Position numbers and translations under genes: made by a program
Notes under the pieces: generated by a model
Told to the model about the DNA's origin: nothing
Database searches by the model: none
The model's input: the letters and a program-made list of their open reading frames with translations, nothing else
Assembly: GCA_947258795.1 (NCBI GenBank)
Contig: CAMYJU010000025.1
Location: 1-42,688 of the forward strand
DNA length: 42,688 bases
Reading direction: 5' to 3'
Origin: an uncultured Gammaproteobacteria bacterium
GTDB lineage: Bacteria > Pseudomonadota > Gammaproteobacteria > DRJJ01
Shown here: one piece after another, positions 27,465-41,341 of the stretch
Position numbering within the stretch: the first letter of the stretch is position 1
Layout: each line of letters begins with the position of its first letter

Positions 27465-30400
27465 GTGGCGTCACCAAGCAAAAAGCGAATTAAGAAGACA
27501 GATAGCCGCAAGAAAACAAGGGCTGCTTATAAGGGTAGGGGTGCAATTGATTATCCCATTGTTGGGTTAGGTGCTTCCGCAGGTGGTCTGGACGCCTTTA
27601 AAAGGTTCTTCAATACCATGCCCTCTGAGAGCGGTATGGCCTTCGTGTTAATACAACATCTCGATCCTTCACACGAAAGCATTACCGCTGACCTGCTGGC
27701 CAGGCACACAGTTATGAAAGTAGCACAGATCGAGGACTCAACGCCGGTTGAGGCTAACCATGTTTACGTTATCCCACCCAACACAGACCTGACCATCGAG
27801 AACGGTGTTTTGCACCTGATTGAGCCTGTTCAGCGCCATGGCATGCGCCTGCCGATCGACTTCTTCTTCCGGTCAATGGCCGAGGACCAGCAGGAAAAAG
27901 CCCTGTGCGCCATCTTGTCCGGTACTGGTACAGATGGCACGCTGGGTCTCAAGGCAATTAAAGGGAATGGTGGCATGGTCATGGCCCAGTCTCCCGAGAC
28001 GGCGCAATTCGACGGTATGCCGCGCAGTGCTATCGATACGGGTATGGTCGACTATATAGTGCCTGTTGATGAAATGCCCGATATCCTGATCAAGTACGTT
28101 CAACACGCTCATGAATTATTGAGACCCGGTACGATTGTGACCGCACCGCCTGATCAACTGGGTTTGATTCTTGCAGCGCTCCAGTTGCACACTAAATACG
28201 ATTTTCACTGTTATAAAAAGGGTACCCTGATGCGTCGTATCGAACGACGCATGGGGCTCAAGCATCTCGAGGATATTACAGATTATGCGCATATCATACA
28301 GAAAGACGAACAAGAGGCCATACAGCTTTTCAAAGACCTGTTAATTGGTGTCACGGGTTTCTATCGTGAGCCGGAGGCATACAAGCTGCTTGAGAAAGAA
28401 GTGATCCATACGATAGTGCGGGAGAAAGATGATGAGGAGCCGATACGCGTCTGGGTTCCTGGCTGTTCAACGGGAGAAGAACCTTATTCGATAGGCATCC
28501 TGTTTCTAGAGCAGATCCAGGCGAAACAAAAGCATTGCCCATTACAGATCTTTGCGTCAGATATTGACGAGCAAGCACTGACAGTTGCACGAGCGGGCAT
28601 CTATCCGGTGAACATTGCAGCAGATGTATCCGCTGTACGCTTGCGGCAGTTTTTCAATAAACGGGATGAGTTTTACCAGGTCGTAAAGCAACTGCGCGAT
28701 ATCGTCGTGTTCGCTTTGCAAAACCTGATCAGAGATCCGCCGTTTTCAAAACTGGATCTGATCAGCTGTCGAAACCTGTTGATATACCTTGAACCTGAGG
28801 TACAGAGGAATATTATTTCCTTGTTCCATTTCGTACTCAATGATGATGGCTTCCTGTTTCTGGGAAGTTCAGAGACGATTGGACAACATGAGGACATGTT
28901 CCAACCTGTTTCTAAAAAATCCCGCCTATACCGGCGTATCGGGCCAAAGCGGCGAGATAAGCTCGATTTACCCTTTGCAAGCGGTCTAGAGAAGCTTGTT
29001 AGTGCCGGGCATAGTCTTCTAGCGAGACCTACCGAGCCCGCCAACCTTGGGAAAATAACCCAGCAATTACTGCTGGGGCGCTACGCACCATTTGCAGTAT
29101 TAATTAATCGCAAGTACGAGATTCTGTATCTTTATGGCCAATCTGGTCCCTACCTGGAACTGACCACAGGTGAACCAAGCCAGGATCTGATGGCCATTGC
29201 CCGCGAGGGACTACGCAGTAAGCTCCGGGCCGCAGTACAAAAGGTCACTAAGAATGAGCAGGAGATCGTGATCAAGGCACGGGTCAAACGCGCCGGGACC
29301 TATTATCCTGTTCGACTTACGGTATTGCCGGTCGAGGCACCAGCGGTAGCCAAAGGGCTGATAGTTGTCACCTTCGAAGATATAAAAGTAGCTGCTATAA
29401 AAGTTTCCGAGCTGGACAAGGAAATGGAGGTATCTAACGAGACATTAGTGCGTCAGCTGGAAACCGAACTTAGTGAAACCCAGGATGACCTGCGAAGCAG
29501 TGTAGAGGAGCTGGAGGCCTCCAACGAAGAACTAAAGACTTCCAACGAGGAAGTTTTGTCGATGAATGAGGAGCTTCAGTCGACCAACGAAGAACTTGAA
29601 ACCTCCAAAGAAGAACTTCAATCCCTAAATGAAGAACTAACAACAGTCAACAATCAACTTCAGGATAAAGTAGAGGAATTAGCATCGACCAATGATGATC
29701 TGTCTAACCTGTTAAGTAACACCGATATCGCCGCACTCTTCCTGGATCCACAGTTCCGCATCAAGCGCTTTACACCGTCCACCACCAAACTATTCAATTT
29801 GATTGTTTCGGATGTGGGTAGACCGATAGGTGATATCTCCCACAGGATCCGTAACATGACCTTGCTGCAGGACGCCGACACCGTGTTAACGAATCTGACG
29901 CCTATCGAAAAGGAGGTGCACAATGAAAATGGTGAGTGTTTTATCATGCGCATTCTGCCTTTTCGCACAGAAGACAACATAATCGATGGTGTTGTCGCTA
30001 CGTTCGTTGATGTTACACACCTCAAGCAGGCTGAACAGTCACTAGCCAGATCAAAAGAGCGTGTTGAACTGCTGCTTAAATCAACTGGCGAAGCGATTTA
30101 TGGCGTTGATGAGAAGGGATATTGCACTTTTGTTAATGACAAACTTCTGGAACAACTGGGATTTACCTCGGATGAGGTGCTTGGTAGTGCTGTACATAAA
30201 TTGATCCACCATACCCGTTCAGATGGTTCGCTCTATCCCTGGGAGGATTGCTTCGTTTATCACTGTCTTAAGAATGGTGTCAGCGCCAAGGGTGGTCATG
30301 ACCTTGCATGGCGCAAGGACGGCACATCGTTCCCGACCCTGTATTCCGTGGAACCAATTATAGAGCGCAAGAATGTAACCGGAGCTGTAGTTATATTCAG

Positions 30401-31727
30401 AGATATGACTGAAGAAGTAGCAATCTCTAGCAAGCTTGATCATCTGGCGCGACACGACTCATTAACAGGACTGGTTAACCGGCGTGAATTTGAAGAGCGA
30501 CTTGGTCGTGTACTTGAAAGTGCCAAACATAACCAGACTGGGCATATATTATGCTACCTCGATCTGGATCAGTTCAAGGTGATTAACGATACTTGTGGGC
30601 ATCTGGCGGGAGACGAATTACTACGGCGGATCGCCGGCTTGTTAGGAGAACACGTCAGGAAGCGGGATACACTGGCTCGGCTGGGTGGCGATGAATTTGC
30701 TGTGCTACTGGAACACTGTGATCAGCATGAGGGAACGCGTGTTGCCAATAGCATGCGTGATGCAGTTGCGGATTTTCGATTCCAATGGGAAGGTAAGACC
30801 CATACAGTCGGTGTAAGTATTGGTGTGGTTTCTATTTCAGAGAATGCCGGTGATATAACCGATGCATTAAAAGCAGCCGATGCTGCCTGCTATGCAGCGA
30901 AGGAGAGTGGCCGTAATCGCATACACGTCTACCATGAGCAAGACACGATACTGGCGACAAGGCACGGGGAAATGCAATGGGTTGCCCGTATCAACAGAGC
31001 GCTGGAAGAAAATCGCCTGTACCTCACACTTCAAGCGATTGCATCTGTCAATGGTGGTAGCGGTAGTAATATCTCGCACGAAGTCTTGCTGCGCATGCTG
31101 GACGATGATGGAAATGTCATTCTGCCAGAGGCGTTTCTTGGTGCTGCCGAACGCTACAATCTCTCAGTCAAGCTGGACCAGTGGGTCATCAGCAGGATAT
31201 TTGATTGGCTTTCCAAGAATCCAGAGAAACTGAAGCGTGCAGCCTTCTTCACTATCAATTTATCCGGACAATCGCTGGGAGATGAAGATTTCCTGAACTT
31301 TACGATAACAGAACTAAAAAAGTATCAGGTGCCTCCCGAGAAAATTTGTTTTGAAATTACCGAAACTACAGCAATTACCAATCTCACTAGTGCCAACCGT
31401 TTTATGCATGCCCTCAAACAGTTGGGATGTGTTTTCGCACTGGATGATTTTGGCAGCGGTTTATCATCATTTGGATACCTCAAAACACTACCAGTAGAAT
31501 ATCTGAAAATCTCCGGTTTATTTGTAAAGGATATGCTGGACGACCCCATCGACCTTGCCATGGTGAAATCCATTAACGAGATTGGCCAGGTAATGGGCAA
31601 AAAGACGATTGCGGAATACGTCGAAAATAAGGAAATCCTAGCGCGATTGAGTGAATTAGGCGTTAATTATGCACAGGGCTATCTGATCGGAAAACCTGTA
31701 CGACTTGAAGATGTGAAGTTTAATTGA
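27465..31727 (+). CDS. CheB-CheR-PAS-PAS-GGDEF-EAL signalling fusion
   Basis: A 1420-residue soluble fusion. Order: basic N-terminus; CheB methylesterase (about 30-215, Ser38 in GASAGG, QHLDPSHES, GTGTDGT near 155) without a receiver domain; CheR methyltransferase (about 225-495, GVTGFYREPEAY, PGCSTGEEPYSIG near 328, SCRNLLIYL near 436); coiled coil with NEEL-type repeats (about 652-752); two PAS domains (about 755-860 and 867-985); GGDEF (motif intact near 1074); EAL (about 1170-1418). The EAL signature is changed to HEVLLRM and EGVE to EYVE, so phosphodiesterase activity is doubtful, though DDFGSG remains. The start is GTG with AAGGAA upstream. No receptor or che gene is adjacent. It may link receptor methylation chemistry to c-di-GMP. 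Confidence 0.92.
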   Translation: MASPSKKRIKKTDSRKKTRAAYKGRGAIDYPIVGLGASAGGLDAFKRFFNTMPSESGMAFVLIQHLDPSHESITADLLARHTVMKVAQIEDSTPVEANHVYVIPPNTDLTIENGVLHLIEPVQRHGMRLPIDFFFRSMAEDQQEKALCAILSGTGTDGTLGLKAIKGNGGMVMAQSPETAQFDGMPRSAIDTGMVDYIVPVDEMPDILIKYVQHAHELLRPGTIVTAPPDQLGLILAALQLHTKYDFHCYKKGTLMRRIERRMGLKHLEDITDYAHIIQKDEQEAIQLFKDLLIGVTGFYREPEAYKLLEKEVIHTIVREKDDEEPIRVWVPGCSTGEEPYSIGILFLEQIQAKQKHCPLQIFASDIDEQALTVARAGIYPVNIAADVSAVRLRQFFNKRDEFYQVVKQLRDIVVFALQNLIRDPPFSKLDLISCRNLLIYLEPEVQRNIISLFHFVLNDDGFLFLGSSETIGQHEDMFQPVSKKSRLYRRIGPKRRDKLDLPFASGLEKLVSAGHSLLARPTEPANLGKITQQLLLGRYAPFAVLINRKYEILYLYGQSGPYLELTTGEPSQDLMAIAREGLRSKLRAAVQKVTKNEQEIVIKARVKRAGTYYPVRLTVLPVEAPAVAKGLIVVTFEDIKVAAIKVSELDKEMEVSNETLVRQLETELSETQDDLRSSVEELEASNEELKTSNEEVLSMNEELQSTNEELETSKEELQSLNEELTTVNNQLQDKVEELASTNDDLSNLLSNTDIAALFLDPQFRIKRFTPSTTKLFNLIVSDVGRPIGDISHRIRNMTLLQDADTVLTNLTPIEKEVHNENGECFIMRILPFRTEDNIIDGVVATFVDVTHLKQAEQSLARSKERVELLLKSTGEAIYGVDEKGYCTFVNDKLLEQLGFTSDEVLGSAVHKLIHHTRSDGSLYPWEDCFVYHCLKNGVSAKGGHDLAWRKDGTSFPTLYSVEPIIERKNVTGAVVIFRDMTEEVAISSKLDHLARHDSLTGLVNRREFEERLGRVLESAKHNQTGHILCYLDLDQFKVINDTCGHLAGDELLRRIAGLLGEHVRKRDTLARLGGDEFAVLLEHCDQHEGTRVANSMRDAVADFRFQWEGKTHTVGVSIGVVSISENAGDITDALKAADAACYAAKESGRNRIHVYHEQDTILATRHGEMQWVARINRALEENRLYLTLQAIASVNGGSGSNISHEVLLRMLDDDGNVILPEAFLGAAERYNLSVKLDQWVISRIFDWLSKNPEKLKRAAFFTINLSGQSLGDEDFLNFTITELKKYQVPPEKICFEITETTAITNLTSANRFMHALKQLGCVFALDDFGSGLSSFGYLKTLPVEYLKISGLFVKDMLDDPIDLAMVKSINEIGQVMGKKTIAEYVENKEILARLSELGVNYAQGYLIGKPVRLEDVKFN

Positions 31728-34139: not shown

Positions 34140-34973
34140 ATGAAAACAGTAGGTTTTTTACAAGAAGTCGATCCAAACAAAAGTGGCGGCAAAGGTAAAA
34201 ACCTTATTACGCTCACTGTTAATAATTTTCCGGTTCCTCCGGGGTTTGTCATCACCACCGATGCTTATTCTCAATTCAAGCACGAAGCGCGGATACCTGA
34301 GTCAATCAAGAATGAAATTGAAATTTGTTATAACAAGCTTATTGATATAACCGGTAATAGAGTTGTCGCCGTACGCTCATCCGCCTCCGCTGAAGACACG
34401 GCAAGCTCATCCTTTGCCGGTCAATATGATACCTATCTCAACGTCAATACTTTAGATGAGCTCCTTGGGCATGTTATAGATTGCTGGCACTCATTGTTTA
34501 GTGAAAGATCCGTGCTTTACAGAAAAAGGATGAATATCCCTGATGACTATCTAACAATGGCCGTGGTCGTCCAGACAATGCTTGACCCTGAATCAGCAGG
34601 TGTACTTTTTACAGCAAACCCCTATACCATGGATAAAAACGTGATGCTCGCCGAAGCGAGTTGGGGCTGCGGTGAAAATGTCGTATCAGGCAGCGTGACA
34701 CCGGATTATTTTGAAATCGCAAACAATGACTCATTTGAAATAATCGCAAAAAGAATTGGTTCAAAAGTAGCCTTGCCGGATAACTCAACAGCAGTATCAG
34801 CCGACCAACAGACGACCTTTTGCATTGCTGAAAATCAGTTAAAAGAGTTATGTGAAATAGGAAAAAAAATAGAGTCCATGTTTGGCAGACCACAAGATAT
34901 TGAGTGGGCATTAGCCGATGACCACTCATTTTACATACTGCAATCGAGACCAATTACCCGGTTTGTGGATTAG
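34140..34973 (+). CDS. Stand-alone PEP/pyruvate-binding (PPDK_N) domain protein
   Basis: This 277-residue protein equals only the N-terminal ATP-grasp domain of PEP synthase or pyruvate phosphate dikinase. Visible landmarks are the GGKGKNLITL loop near residue 17, VPPGFVITTDAY, RSSASAEDTASSSFAGQYDT (residues 79-98), MLDPESAGVLFTANP, EASWGCGENVVSGSVTPD and the closing DIEWALADDHSFYILQSRPIT. The domain is complete to its last strand, but the phosphohistidine and PEP-binding domains are absent. It could charge a separate histidine-domain partner, or be a remnant that kept its frame. DNA here is about 35% GC in a sampled line, unlike the upstream core genes. The SGNH gene begins 27 bases later, so they are probably co-transcribed. 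Confidence 0.85.
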   Translation: MKTVGFLQEVDPNKSGGKGKNLITLTVNNFPVPPGFVITTDAYSQFKHEARIPESIKNEIEICYNKLIDITGNRVVAVRSSASAEDTASSSFAGQYDTYLNVNTLDELLGHVIDCWHSLFSERSVLYRKRMNIPDDYLTMAVVVQTMLDPESAGVLFTANPYTMDKNVMLAEASWGCGENVVSGSVTPDYFEIANNDSFEIIAKRIGSKVALPDNSTAVSADQQTTFCIAENQLKELCEIGKKIESMFGRPQDIEWALADDHSFYILQSRPITRFVD

Positions 34974-36245: not shown

Positions 36246-36800
36246 ATGTTGCATATTATACCAATATTTTGTGCCGCATTGTTACTTACAAGTTGCGCCA
36301 CATCTTCAACAAATACTCTTGATACACACCATAGCGACAAATCAAATTCTGTACTGGCCAAACAATATCTGAACTATTTCGACCAGCAAAGTTTACCCTA
36401 CATGAAACCGATAGGCTGCAGTGCAAAAGCCCCTTGCTCTCTTACTGCTGATTTTAATGATGATGGCATTGTCGATTATGTAGGGCTGTATGAGTATTCA
36501 GGTCCTACGGAACGGATTGGGGCCAACTATTTGGACCTCGTGATTCTCTATTCCACCAAGGACTCGGCTCAACCCACCCATCAGATTTTTCGATATGTGG
36601 GAGCTATCGACAAGAAGAACCAGGTTCTGGTCAAACTAGAGAGACAAGAGGCGGGGGAGATGCAGCTACCGCTGGGGACTATCACGTTGAAACGTCCAGC
36701 CATTAATGTGCGACGAGATGGCCAGGCGCCAGGCGCCTACTTTCCGACTTACTATTGGACCGGAACGCGGTTTGTATCAATCGACAAGTCGGACGATTAA
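36246..36800 (+). CDS. Lipoprotein of unknown function
   Basis: A 184-residue predicted lipoprotein (lipobox LLTSCA, modified Cys17). After a polar linker comes SLTADFNDDGIVDYVGLYEY, an FG-GAP/dockerin-like acidic loop (around residues 66-83) that may bind calcium. Two short beta-rich stretches and a terminal YYWTGTRFVSIDKSDD follow, the last resembling the TGxxF...D ends of bacterial VCBS-like proteins. I recognise no named family. The ribosome-binding stretch AAGGAGGAG lies only three bases before the ATG. GC rises in the second half. It stands between the AT-rich pair and the large convergent gene. Confidence 0.7.
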   Translation: MLHIIPIFCAALLLTSCATSSTNTLDTHHSDKSNSVLAKQYLNYFDQQSLPYMKPIGCSAKAPCSLTADFNDDGIVDYVGLYEYSGPTERIGANYLDLVILYSTKDSAQPTHQIFRYVGAIDKKNQVLVKLERQEAGEMQLPLGTITLKRPAINVRRDGQAPGAYFPTYYWTGTRFVSIDKSDD

Positions 36801-37192: not shown

Positions 37193-40100
37193 TTAAAACG
37201 AGGCCAACACGCCTAGTTGAAATTGATCAAAATGCAGACTGTCTGAAGCCGTCACCGCCTTGTGGTAATTGTATGTGGCCTCAAAGGAATAACGGCCACT
37301 CAACGGAATATTCAGCCCGATTCCGACATTCAGTCCCCCTTCCACATCACCGGGATCGAAAGCATAGAGCCCGCCCCCGCCATTTACAAATACCCGCATC
37401 GGCGACGTGGGGTTGAACGTATACTTGAGATTCGCCCCCACCGTCAGAAGATTTATGTCCGAGTGCCCGTCGCTTCCGTCAAAATTCGAGAAGCCCAGCC
37501 TCAGATCCCAGGCGAGATTGCGGTTGAGAGGATACAGGAGGTCAAGGTTCACAGTGGGGCCAGCATCCGTTATATCATCCAAGTCACCAAACGGACGGAC
37601 GATCCCAGCATGTAGGCTCTTCAGGGGCTTCGACAGCTTACCATCCAACTTCTCATCTAAACCAAAGTCCGTGCTCGCTTCACCCACCGTGACCGTGACC
37701 TGTACATCTTGCTCGTCGGTGGACAGGGGAACGATCACGGTTTGTGTGTAGCTGCCGTCCAGGTTGTCGCGCAAAGGACCAGAGTCCCTCCCGCCCGTGA
37801 CTGCAACGGTAATGAGCCCGCTGTACCCCGGCCCTAAAAAGTTGCCGTGGGGGTCTTTAGGGGTGACCCGGACATCGAATCGTTTATCATCGTCGCTCGC
37901 TAAACGCACAACATTAATCTCAATGGTCTCCGGTGTGGGTTGGACCGATAAATAAGCCTGGATCTGGTGTTCCCGCCTAAAGTTATTGCCATTGTGGGTG
38001 GGACCCTTGGCCTGGAAGTAGAATGAGTAGGTCCCTTCCTTTCGCGTGTCCGAGAAGCGATTCGTGTAGATTCCATCAGCGCCCGTCGCATCGCCATGGC
38101 TGCCATCATCAAACAGCCGAAGTGTGCGAGGGCCCTTTTGACTGGGAAACGGCACCTTGGCAATGTCGGTCAGATACAATCCCTTGCGCACAACAGGCGC
38201 TAATGCTTCGGCGCCTTTCTGGGCCGGGATCTGCTTGAGTTGTTGCGGACTCACAGCATGAGTCGATAACCAATTCCCTCGCCCATCCTCGGGGGCCGTG
38301 ACGGTGACCGTCACATCAGTCAGGCCAAGGATCGGCCTCCGGCCTTCCCGTAATTCCGCCGTCAGGGTCACGGTATCACCCACGACGTGCCCTGCACGAT
38401 CCAATCCGGCATGCAATTTCAGTCCTGAATCCATTAGAACACTGTACATGAAGGGTTCGGTCTCTTTAGAGCGTTTACTGTGATTGATTATCTCCAGTCG
38501 CCACGGATCTGGGCCAATGCGGCCCGGTACCCTCAGCGCCTCTTTCTGCACCGCCATGATCTGATAAGAGGCGCCGTGGACAATCTTCACACCCGGATAA
38601 AATTCCGAGCCGGGTGGCGGAATCTGGTTGCCACTGGAGTCAAACACCCGAAAAGAGAGCAGCTGGTGCTGGGGTGTTGCCCAGCTCACATGAAAGGTCA
38701 CTTGCCGGTCATGCTCGGTGACCTGTACGGGAAAGGACTGAGCTTCCCCGGCTGCGATACGTCCGAAGGGATCCACCGCAGCCTGAAGGCCTAAAACATC
38801 GCCGATAATTTTATTATACACAGTCGCTAATGCGGTTGGTGGGCTCCATGCAGTCGCATTGCCAGCAGAAGCCGCGGAGGTGGTCGCATCAAAAAATTGG
38901 CTATCTAGCGCGAGACCGCTTGGACGGGTTTCGTTGGCCAGTTCTTTGAGAAGGGGAATGTCTACCTCGACGGTATTGCCAAAAGCCACGGAGAAGATGC
39001 GGGTGTTGGCGTCTAAGGAAGCAAGCAAATTGGTAATAGGGGAATCACCTACTGTAGCGCGACTAGGCACATTGTGGTACCCATCGCTGAGGAGCACCAC
39101 CGCCCGACAAGTCTGGGTGTTGAGCATATTCTCCGCCGTCTCCACTCCCGCCACCAAAGGGGTTCCCCCACCGGCTGTCAAATTGTCGATCTCGGCTTTG
39201 GCGGTCAAAATATTGGAAGCTGTATCCACCTCTAACCCAAAAACCTCACTGGCAGCCCCGCCGAACTTGGCAATCCCGATATTGACGATCCCGGGGTCTG
39301 GAGGAGCCAGTTGCATCAGGTCAAGAAATTGCTTTGACGCTTCCTGCGCGAAGCCCAGACGCTGCTGGTTAGGGGGAACACCGGGAGTGCCATCAATCGC
39401 CCAGCCCATGCTGCCGGAGACATCCTGCAACAGCACCACGCTCGGCCGTAAAATTGGGTCTAATTTATAATTTGTGATGGTTACATCTGAGGCAGTGCCA
39501 TCAACCATTGCACTTGGACTCGTACTCGTATTGGGAGTGCCCACGGTGCTCCCAATCGGGGAAAACGTGTCAATAGTTAGCGTATTGGCAACCGTATCAA
39601 ACCGCATGATCCGCATATTGCCAGAATTATTTTGCGGCGCGCCATAGTTTTGGTAGTTCGACATCAGGGCGTCCACGCGACCCATACATGAAGAACGGGC
39701 ACTATCAGCGATACCTGCGACACTTTCCCCGGGATTGATCCTCAACCATTTCTCCCCCCGGCAATGCCCACTCAGCATCATGAACAGGTTCGGGTTGTCG
39801 CGGAGTTCATTCCAGAGCTCTTGGCCAAAATTGCCGAAATTAGGATCCGCACTATTACATGTGGATCCTTGGGCAAGAATAAAATGAGCCGTAATGATAG
39901 CTCGACGGTCAGGATACTGTTTCAGTAACCCATCCGCCCAGTCACTTACTGTGTTAAGAGCATCTTGCGAGTAGACCAGATTGATGGAGATAAACTCTAT
40001 ACCTCCGGCCGACTGAAACAGCGTGTAATTATTCTCGTTTCCCCCTCCGGGTCGAACCCCGCCATGATAGGCTTCGGCTCCATATCCAGAAGGGCCTGCA

Positions 40101-40591
40101 CCAAATAATGGGCCCGTATTTTCTGGACCAGCACCATTATAGTCATCCGGATCCGCCAGATCCTGGCAAAATCCGTTTGGGGGATCACCTGCACCCACCT
40201 CATCAAAGTCATGGTTGCCAGGAACCACCCCGTGGGGAATTCCTGCCGCTCGTAGAATCTCCATAGCATCTGTCGCCCTTTGCCATTCCGTTGAACCAGC
40301 ACTGCCACCGGAGTCGCAGTAATTATTAGCGACTAAATCACCCAGGTGAGCGACATAAATAATCGGATGTGGATCGCCAGCAGTTCCACCATGGGTTCGG
40401 TTATCCCGAATCCAGGTTGTTTGCTGTGTAAACGTGTTAGGAACGTTAGTTGACGCTGAATAGTATTGTGTATCCGGCAGCACTGCGATCGAGAACTTCT
40501 CCGCTCCGGCAGGCACTGCCCATAGCAGAGCCCAAATCACAACCCCTCCTAGACACAACGTCAAGGTTGTGCCTGTGTTGCTGTGCACCAT
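37193..40591 (-). CDS. Secreted phosphoesterase-VWA-outer-membrane-barrel fusion
   Basis: A 1132-residue protein with a signal peptide (VVIWALLWAVPAGA). Residues 32-345 are a calcineurin-like phosphoesterase with all ligand blocks: Asp40 in LPDTQYY, Asp85 in HLGDLV, GNHDFD at 125-130, His236 in AHF and SGHCRG at 274-279. Residues 383-600 are a VWA domain with complete MIDAS: DVSGS (390-394), Thr477 in GGGTP and Asp503 in LLSDGYHN. Residues 640-970 are beta-sandwich modules, with an acidic FDDGSHGDATGADGIYTNRF (827-846) and DPHGN...DNLDGSYTQ. Residues 985-1132 are an amphipathic beta-barrel ending in Phe, as BAM substrates do. Start: AGGAGGA, six bases before the ATG. I infer the barrel anchors it and the rest faces outside or the periplasm. 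Confidence 0.82.
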   Translation of the reverse strand: MVHSNTGTTLTLCLGGVVIWALLWAVPAGAEKFSIAVLPDTQYYSASTNVPNTFTQQTTWIRDNRTHGGTAGDPHPIIYVAHLGDLVANNYCDSGGSAGSTEWQRATDAMEILRAAGIPHGVVPGNHDFDEVGAGDPPNGFCQDLADPDDYNGAGPENTGPLFGAGPSGYGAEAYHGGVRPGGGNENNYTLFQSAGGIEFISINLVYSQDALNTVSDWADGLLKQYPDRRAIITAHFILAQGSTCNSADPNFGNFGQELWNELRDNPNLFMMLSGHCRGEKWLRINPGESVAGIADSARSSCMGRVDALMSNYQNYGAPQNNSGNMRIMRFDTVANTLTIDTFSPIGSTVGTPNTSTSPSAMVDGTASDVTITNYKLDPILRPSVVLLQDVSGSMGWAIDGTPGVPPNQQRLGFAQEASKQFLDLMQLAPPDPGIVNIGIAKFGGAASEVFGLEVDTASNILTAKAEIDNLTAGGGTPLVAGVETAENMLNTQTCRAVVLLSDGYHNVPSRATVGDSPITNLLASLDANTRIFSVAFGNTVEVDIPLLKELANETRPSGLALDSQFFDATTSAASAGNATAWSPPTALATVYNKIIGDVLGLQAAVDPFGRIAAGEAQSFPVQVTEHDRQVTFHVSWATPQHQLLSFRVFDSSGNQIPPPGSEFYPGVKIVHGASYQIMAVQKEALRVPGRIGPDPWRLEIINHSKRSKETEPFMYSVLMDSGLKLHAGLDRAGHVVGDTVTLTAELREGRRPILGLTDVTVTVTAPEDGRGNWLSTHAVSPQQLKQIPAQKGAEALAPVVRKGLYLTDIAKVPFPSQKGPRTLRLFDDGSHGDATGADGIYTNRFSDTRKEGTYSFYFQAKGPTHNGNNFRREHQIQAYLSVQPTPETIEINVVRLASDDDKRFDVRVTPKDPHGNFLGPGYSGLITVAVTGGRDSGPLRDNLDGSYTQTVIVPLSTDEQDVQVTVTVGEASTDFGLDEKLDGKLSKPLKSLHAGIVRPFGDLDDITDAGPTVNLDLLYPLNRNLAWDLRLGFSNFDGSDGHSDINLLTVGANLKYTFNPTSPMRVFVNGGGGLYAFDPGDVEGGLNVGIGLNIPLSGRYSFEATYNYHKAVTASDSLHFDQFQLGVLASF

Positions 40592-41082
40592 GCGTCGTCC
40601 TCCTGAGCGTTGTTTCGCTATGTATAGATTTTTTGTCTATAACTTCTTCCGAATCCTTCGAAGATAAGTTAAACACAAGAATGCGCATAAATACAGAAAT
40701 GGATTCCTCTATCAATGACACCGCTGCGCTCAACAGCGCCAACGCCGTGAGCGCGGAATTTTAGCAATCAATTCGTATACTCTATCGATGCATAAAACTT
40801 ACTTAACCAGCCCTAGAAATTTCGTCTAAATAGTTCAACAATTCATCTTGAATATCTTAGTTAGCACTCATCGATAGTGTCAACCTCCTCAGAGGTCTAA
40901 TCAACCTGCCTGCACGTTGAATAATGCGAAATCTAACAATTTCTAATTGTTCAAATTGTCCCAATACTGGGCGTTTTTTTGAGTAGTTCTTGTGGTGCTA
41001 GATGCGATCATCTGTAGTTCACGCAACAAGTTGTGAGCGAATGTAGTGCAAATAAAATAGGCTTGGTTGCTTCGCCAGGTAT
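40592..41082. other. Intergenic region upstream of the fusion gene
   Basis: This stretch holds the ribosome-binding site and presumably the promoter of the large minus-strand gene. I found no convincing gene. Short open frames here either overlap the signal-peptide region of the large gene or lack any start signal. From about 40775 the DNA is AT-rich. The fragment of a second phosphoesterase begins at its right end. Confidence 0.5.
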
Positions 41083-41341
41083 TGCCGCGGTGAAAATGGA
41101 TTACGCGCACCAGTAGTGATGCACAACGTGCTTGCATGGGTGACGTAAATTTGATGTTATCAAATTATCAAAACTACAGTAATACGGGATCTAATAATGA
41201 TTCGGGTTACTTGAGAGTCATAACTATCGATACCAGTTCAACTAGCAAAAATGTAGCCGTTGAAACTTATTCTCCATGGATTGATAGCCCCGATCCACAT
41301 CTTGGCTCCTTAATACTACTTTTGATTCCGCTGGTTTTTAG
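41083..41341 (+). pseudogene. Remnant of a second phosphoesterase
   Basis: The translation SDAQRACMGDVNLMLSNYQNY, then GYLRVITIDTSS and ETYSPWIDS, matches residues 297-345 of the fusion protein on the other strand (ADSARSSCMGRVDALMSNYQNY ... MRIMRFD ... DTFSP). Just upstream, CRGENGLR in another frame corresponds to CRGEKWLR, so one A appears lost near 41095. At the end NTTFDSAGF followed by TAG is read in yet another frame. Nothing remains of the N-terminal domain. It is the decayed C-terminal part of a related phosphoesterase gene. Confidence 0.72.

Follow-up and report, generated by a model that had tools for sequence, protein, structure and literature searches.

The stretch of DNA analysed here, referred to as the window, comprises the 42,688 nucleotides of contig CAMYJU010000025.1, assembled from an uncultured Gammaproteobacteria bacterium (GTDB lineage DRJJ01; assembly GCA_947258795.1). 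The gene of interest lies on the reverse strand at positions 37193–40591 and forms a single uninterrupted frame from ATG to stop, encoding a protein of 1132 amino acids. Along the chain, a signal peptide is followed by a calcineurin-like metallophosphoesterase (MPE) head, a von Willebrand factor A (VWA) domain with a metal-ion-dependent adhesion site (MIDAS), β-sandwiches and an Invasin-D3-like domain; an eight-stranded barrel of the OmpA/NspA type forms the C-terminal end (Table 1). A first-pass annotation, made from the sequence alone, had recognized a phosphoesterase, a VWA domain with MIDAS, β-sandwich modules and a barrel of the kind inserted by the β-barrel assembly machinery (BAM). This domain reading is correct according to domain searches, motifs and structural models; searches with hidden Markov models of Pfam and NCBIfam recovered the phosphoesterase, the VWA domain and the barrel, with the Metallophos model just below its cut-off.

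Table 1. Features of the gene and its immediate surroundings (window coordinates).
Feature	Residues	Positions	Strand	Basis or remark
Shine-Dalgarno sequence AGGAGG		40599..40604	-	7 nt 5' of the ATG; sequence
Signal peptide	1-30	40502..40591	-	hydrophobic core, AGA cleavage motif (then EK); by inspection
Calcineurin-like phosphoesterase (MPE) head	31-360	39512..40501	-	Pfam, motif blocks, AlphaFold2 model, fold matches
VWA domain	385-560	38912..39439	-	Pfam VWA_2 at 385-504, 1.4e-9; MIDAS
β-sandwich after the VWA domain	~561-735 (boundaries approximate)	38387..38911	-	alignments A1, A5
Second β-sandwich	~736-880	37952..38386	-	holds choice-of-anchor X motif DDGSHGDATGADGIYT at 824-857
Invasin domain-3-like immunoglobulin (Ig) domain	888-968	37688..37930	-	Invasin_D3 PF09134, 1.9e-5, below cut-off
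Eight-stranded outer-membrane barrel and stop codon	990-1132	37193..37624	-	Pfam, AlphaFold2, fold match
Degraded phosphoesterase fragment	equivalent to 295-345	41112..41276	+	39% identity, 2e-5; six-frame reading; no catalytic blocks
Convergent neighbour with FG-GAP-like stretch		36246..36800	+	only genome paralogue lies beside the C27 phosphoesterase

In the head, the Metallophos match covers residues 75–236 (1.5e-3). The phosphoesterase assignment is nevertheless firmer than this score, because a stand-alone paralogue in the same genome (contig C27, G000:C27), which is 47% identical to the head, clears the cut-off (6.2e-7), and because the AlphaFold2 (AF2) model of the head (predicted TM-score 0.76) finds its best fold matches exclusively among metallophosphoesterases (Z 15–18, root-mean-square deviation (rmsd) 3–4 Å). 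The model shows the α/β/β/α fold that characterizes the metallo-dependent phosphatase superfamily. A substrate could not be chosen from the fold: Mre11, ADPRibase-Mn, Lmo2642, SMPDL3A and GpdQ tie, and they span nuclease, nucleotide diphosphatase, phosphodiesterase and sphingomyelinase-like structures. The present evidence does not discriminate between the substrates suggested by the first-pass annotation (nucleotides, DNA, teichoic-like polymers). A search of solved-structure sequences with a phosphoesterase profile gave no match, and a phage collection yielded a single match of 24% identity, to the head only.

The MIDAS of the VWA domain is complete, as had been listed earlier, with D390, S392, S394, T477 and D503 all present. 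Its columns are invariant among 12 aligned chassis sequences (see below) except for one Asp-to-Glu change, and invariant or nearly so with 16. In the sandwich region behind the VWA domain, one relative (L059) matches Hemicentin GBD-like, while the second sandwich of the window protein contains a choice-of-anchor X segment (NCBIfam NF041940) that scores above cut-off (1.6e-10). Invasin_D3 is matched by 8 of the 16 chassis members, in L059 above the cut-off. Full-chain AF2 prediction, based on few input sequences, gave a good barrel and a poor VWA domain and middle (mean predicted local distance difference test score 50), and no fold is claimed for residues 561–880.

For the C-terminal region, Pfam OMP_b-brl (PF13505) matches residues 1004–1132 (3.7e-11) and AF2 predicts eight strands at 990–1130. 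The first-pass annotation placed a barrel at residues 985–1132, and the predicted structure contains it: the model matches NspA with Z 18.7 and an rmsd of 2.2 Å over 145 residues, within a group of NspA, OmpA and OmpW matches at Z 17–19. The chain ends in the β-signal QLGVLASF with its aromatic terminus, which, taken with the signal peptide seen by inspection, is the sequence signature of a BAM-inserted barrel. Strand hydrophobicity alternates in the barrel to a degree reached by 17 of 5000 shuffles; however, other predicted strands of the chain alternate as strongly, and the barrel is not set apart by this measure alone. The NspA-type match of the predicted fold is the stronger evidence.

A whole-protein search retrieved relatives of residues 382–1132 that lack the phosphoesterase. 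Residues ~378–1132 make up a reusable chassis, which bears unrelated N-terminal heads in other genomes. When a profile built from the 382–1132 region (alignment A1, then A5) was run against 369 genomes of the class, 12 gave matches at E 1e-10, in some cases through single domains only. A second sample of 398 genomes returned the window genome and three VWA-only matches, and a few further members were found on inspecting relatives of matches. No match was obtained in a plasmid collection searched with the chassis protein, no relatives in viral contigs scanned with the profile, and no copy in the same-genus genome G001 (81% complete). The first-pass annotation did not know the arrangement as a described protein. 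In the literature searched, the coverage of which was partial, this exact arrangement was indeed not found described, but it is no one-off fusion, since the VWA chassis carries many heads and two kinds of anchor.

Subtilase heads (Pfam 4e-37 to 5e-25) occur with a barrel in G052, G309 and G756, and with cadherin-like repeats and a transmembrane (TM) helix in G340. A trypsin-like head (9e-15) is joined to a TM helix in G290, and tyrosinase heads (5e-31 to 2e-24) are found in G023, G036 and G766, in which no anchor was seen. BNR/Asp-box propeller heads with a barrel (G276, G752) have weak Pfam support (1.6e-5, 3.6e-5), as has a lipase-like head with a TM helix (0.017) encoded by the window's own genome (G000:C6). 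Heads without family assignment are carried by G284 (CxxCH motif, TM helix), L007 and G101 (both with a barrel), and G750 has almost no head in front of its TM helix. Full-length members are thus anchored by a barrel in eight cases (window, L007, G052, G309, G756, G276, G752, G101) and by a C-terminal TM helix in five (G000:C6, G340, G290, G284, G750). With the anchors removed, the chassis of G052, G309, G276 and G000:C6 are 40–60% identical and group together (99/98), while their heads are subtilase, subtilase, propeller and lipase-like, respectively, and three barrels stand against one TM helix. The chassis closest to that of the window protein is found in L007 (43%), the head of which is unrelated by sequence. 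Heads and anchors differ, according to these comparisons, on closely related chassis; so few sequences do not give the number or direction of swaps. In G167 and G317, the same barrel is joined to passengers that lack a VWA domain.

Individual members show further peculiarities. In two subtilase-headed proteins (L018 6488–10852, L034 4007–7957), inspection by eye shows Glu at the position of the catalytic Asp (VGVFEPTH, IGVLEYQH) and seemingly intact His and Ser motifs. In three tyrosinase-VWA proteins (L041 3066–5924, L049 469–3111, L066 2020–4815), neither a signal peptide nor a membrane anchor is evident, in contrast to the barrel members, and a trypsin-VWA protein (L038 2028–4973) combines a C-terminal TM helix with no evident signal peptide, giving it a tail-anchored look. 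Another protein (L042 3707–6844) unites the VWA chassis, choice-of-anchor X and a CxxCH head with a Cys-rich C-terminal TM segment recalling MYXO-CTERM-like sorting tags. Among the barrels on VWA-less passengers (L039 3465–5861, L040 3249–5678), one shows a weak CBM9-like match.

Taken together, we read the gene product as an envelope-anchored phosphoesterase on a shared, head-swapping VWA chassis that faces the periplasm, and we assign this reading a probability of roughly 0.5. The signal peptide suggests that the chain would be exported by Sec, and the fold and β-signal that BAM would insert the C-terminal eight-stranded barrel into the outer membrane. Given this topology, the N-terminal part of ~950 residues would be suspended in the periplasm from the inner side of the outer membrane. 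By analogy with CLCA proteins and complement factor B/C2, the MIDAS metal of the VWA domain would mediate docking to a partner protein or to a polymer, the Ig-like modules would space and orient the enzyme, and the two-metal phosphoesterase would act beside its target. Different enzymes, and anchors of either kind, are found on one VWA-sandwich chassis; its conserved function is thus probably docking, with the head as an interchangeable tool.

The orientation follows from barrel architecture. BAM-inserted barrels have their C-terminus in the periplasm, and both ends of an eight-stranded barrel lie on one side of the membrane; the head should therefore face the periplasm, unless some other route brings the passenger to the outside. 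The first-pass annotation had described the enzyme as surface-tethered, a description that the anatomy does not support: eight strands put the N-terminal part with the periplasmic C-terminus and leave no open pore for passenger export. On the predicted barrel, periplasmic facing is nevertheless an even call. Several observations weigh against the periplasmic reading as a whole: VWA adhesins and most of the head types are better known from outside the cell, which favours the surface; the structure of the chassis middle was not resolved by prediction; and the combination of an MPE head with the chassis is known from the window genome only, the survey for the same domain order having found it nowhere but in the window, with stand-alone MPE genes being common.

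The first of these observations leads to the strongest alternative, which is possible though clearly less favoured, namely that the N-terminal part is moved out via BAM during folding, or by another route, and is held at the surface by the barrel while the VWA domain attaches to a host, a mineral or a polymer. The heads of the family (subtilase, trypsin, tyrosinase, Asp-box propeller, lipase-like) belong to types common among extracellular enzymes, and modules of the VWA and Invasin-D3-like kinds are characteristic of adhesins. On inspection, the barrel members whose genes were read begin with a signal peptide, apart from L034, the start of which is not settled. Surface display would nevertheless have to contend with the strand number, which places the N-terminal part on the periplasmic side, and with an OmpA-type barrel without a passenger-sized pore. 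Furthermore, relatives that combine a signal peptide with a TM anchor would likewise retain their heads on the periplasmic side, barring processing.

A second alternative concerns the head, which may be non-catalytic and serve as a binding or structural module. The first-pass annotation had reported all phosphoesterase metal-ligand blocks. Five blocks are indeed present in the order of the superfamily motif (D40-x-Q42, G84-D85, G125-N126-H127-D128, H236 and G275-H276-C-R278), but two textbook metal-ligand His residues are replaced, by Q42 in place of the His of DxH and by R278 in place of the last His of GHxH. Loss of catalysis is nonetheless unlikely. The superfamily consensus, DX[H/X] - GDXX[D/X] - GNH[D/E] - H - GHX[H/X], allows any residue at both sites (PMC3407115). 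In addition, the equivalent of Q42 is present in every homologue covering that position, position 278 varies among relatives, and D85, N126, H127, H236 and H276 are conserved. Across the aligned homologues, the replacements look like a subfamily trait, not decay.

It is improbable that, instead of anchoring the protein, the barrel is of the soluble eight-stranded kind found in cargo of a type 11 secretion system (T11SS), by which the protein would be taken across the outer membrane. The layout of T11SS cargo, with variable heads on a C-terminal eight-stranded barrel, is comparable (PMC12282271). However, the barrel matches the transmembrane barrels of OmpA, NspA and OmpW as well as PF13505, and the barrel and its relatives share a BAM-type β-signal; on these grounds T11SS cargo was rejected as first choice. 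Among Pfam families, the chassis proteins match OMP_b-brl and no TbpBBD or lipoprotein-C family, and the fold list shows transmembrane barrels. No SlipAM (PF04575) was found in the genome, a weak negative as control genomes gave no match either. A classical autotransporter (type Va) was likewise rejected, since it requires a twelve-stranded barrel with a pore helix and eight strands are predicted.

That the frame is an artefact, in which assembly joined a phosphoesterase gene to a VWA-barrel gene, is barely credible: the fused form is known from one genome only and third-position GC content differs between head (0.48) and chassis (0.61), neighbouring codons not being independent, but the composition step falls near codons 250–300, within the head and away from the junction, which lies in frame precisely at the domain linker between two complete domains behind good start signals, and the VWA domain is joined at the same place by other heads in many independent assemblies. 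The first-pass annotation had named such a join as the finding that would overturn it; nothing points to it: both halves are intact, and fusions of a head with the VWA domain turn up repeatedly in unrelated assemblies. The gene is thereby confirmed to encode one real protein. The compositional contrast is in line with separate histories of head and chassis.

The surroundings of the gene also bear on its history. Just upstream, on the opposite strand, lies a 51-residue remnant of a third phosphoesterase copy. The small FG-GAP-like gene has only two copies in the genome (one in the window, the other at L002 2667–3338), each convergent with a phosphoesterase gene, and this pairing may be functional. 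On account of the paralogue, the remnant and the paired FG-GAP-like copies, the locus looks duplicated, one copy having acquired the chassis or the other having shed it. Elsewhere in the window, a stand-alone N-terminal (ATP-binding) pyruvate phosphate dikinase domain of 277 amino acids is encoded at 34140–34973 (+), adjoined by a GDSL lipase-like gene, and a single protein of 1420 amino acids with CheB, CheR, PAS, GGDEF and EAL domains at 27465–31727 (+).

As far as the literature was searched, two aspects are new: the phosphoesterase, tyrosinase, propeller and lipase-like (non-peptidase) heads as well as the subtilase and trypsin heads, and an outer-membrane barrel that serves as anchor interchangeably with a TM helix. 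The idea of head swapping itself is already known from CLCA proteins, as set out in a 2013 survey (PMC3650047). An odd fusion thereby becomes a testable rule, according to which a metal-dependent docking module is kept while the catalytic head and the membrane anchor are exchanged. If true, this rule would explain scattered bacterial VWA proteins, extend the 2013 head-swap idea and supply a natural scaffold by which enzymes could be positioned at the envelope. A sharp topology question arises as well, namely which way a large N-terminal passenger would face when joined to an eight-stranded barrel. A bolder extension, which we regard as doubtful, would be a general Gram-negative enzyme-display platform, in which the chassis takes almost any head, the anchor is exchangeable and an OmpA-type barrel brings the ~950-residue passenger to the surface by an undescribed route.

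Several known systems resemble parts of the protein. Secreted DxQ metallophosphoesterases of Bacteroidota and Verrucomicrobiota, together with the G000:C27 paralogue, are 35–47% identical over the head and have the same blocks, but lack the VWA chassis and the barrel, several of them lying within other multidomain proteins. OmpA, NspA and OmpW share the predicted fold of residues 985–1132 (Z 17–19); in these proteins the barrel either makes up the whole chain or is followed by a periplasmic domain at the C-terminus, whereas the window barrel is preceded by ~985 residues. Type V autotransporters, classical and inverse, likewise unite passenger and barrel in one chain, from which the window protein differs by its eight strands and lack of an export pore. 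In invasin and intimin the passenger is not N-terminal, unlike that of the window protein. NCBIfam choice-of-anchor X proteins share the 824–857 motif, and the chassis does indeed switch anchors; the model itself covers 37 residues only and is silent on heads and on a barrel anchor.

The closest parallels in design are offered by CLCA proteins and, secondly, by complement factor B/C2. CLCA proteins (calcium-activated chloride channel regulators; CLCA_N - VWA - DUF1973 - FnIII) show the same order of hydrolase head, MIDAS VWA, sandwiches and, in some members, an anchor, and their VWA domain acts on a partner channel through its MIDAS (PMC11231702). In the available part of the 2013 survey, two cases are described in which the CLCA protease is replaced, by Peptidase_M10 and CHAP, and there the heads of the window family, an outer-membrane barrel and an Invasin-D3-like module are not mentioned (PMC3650047). 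The CLCA head is the CLCA_N (HExxH) metalloprotease, whereas that of the window protein is a phosphoesterase; PF08434 has no match in its own genome, and none of the 369 class genomes contains CLCA_N above the cut-off. Of the 16 chassis members, 5 are matched by NCBIfam hCaCC, among them the window protein in the region behind the VWA domain; the match is weak (2e-4 to 4e-4), and on its strength the chassis may be homologous to that of CLCA beyond the VWA domain. Complement factor B and C2 likewise combine a MIDAS VWA and a hydrolase in one chain, and the chassis profile matches their VWA domain. They are animal serum proteins in which the VWA domain precedes the protease and no membrane anchor is present, and their likeness to the window protein is one of working principle.

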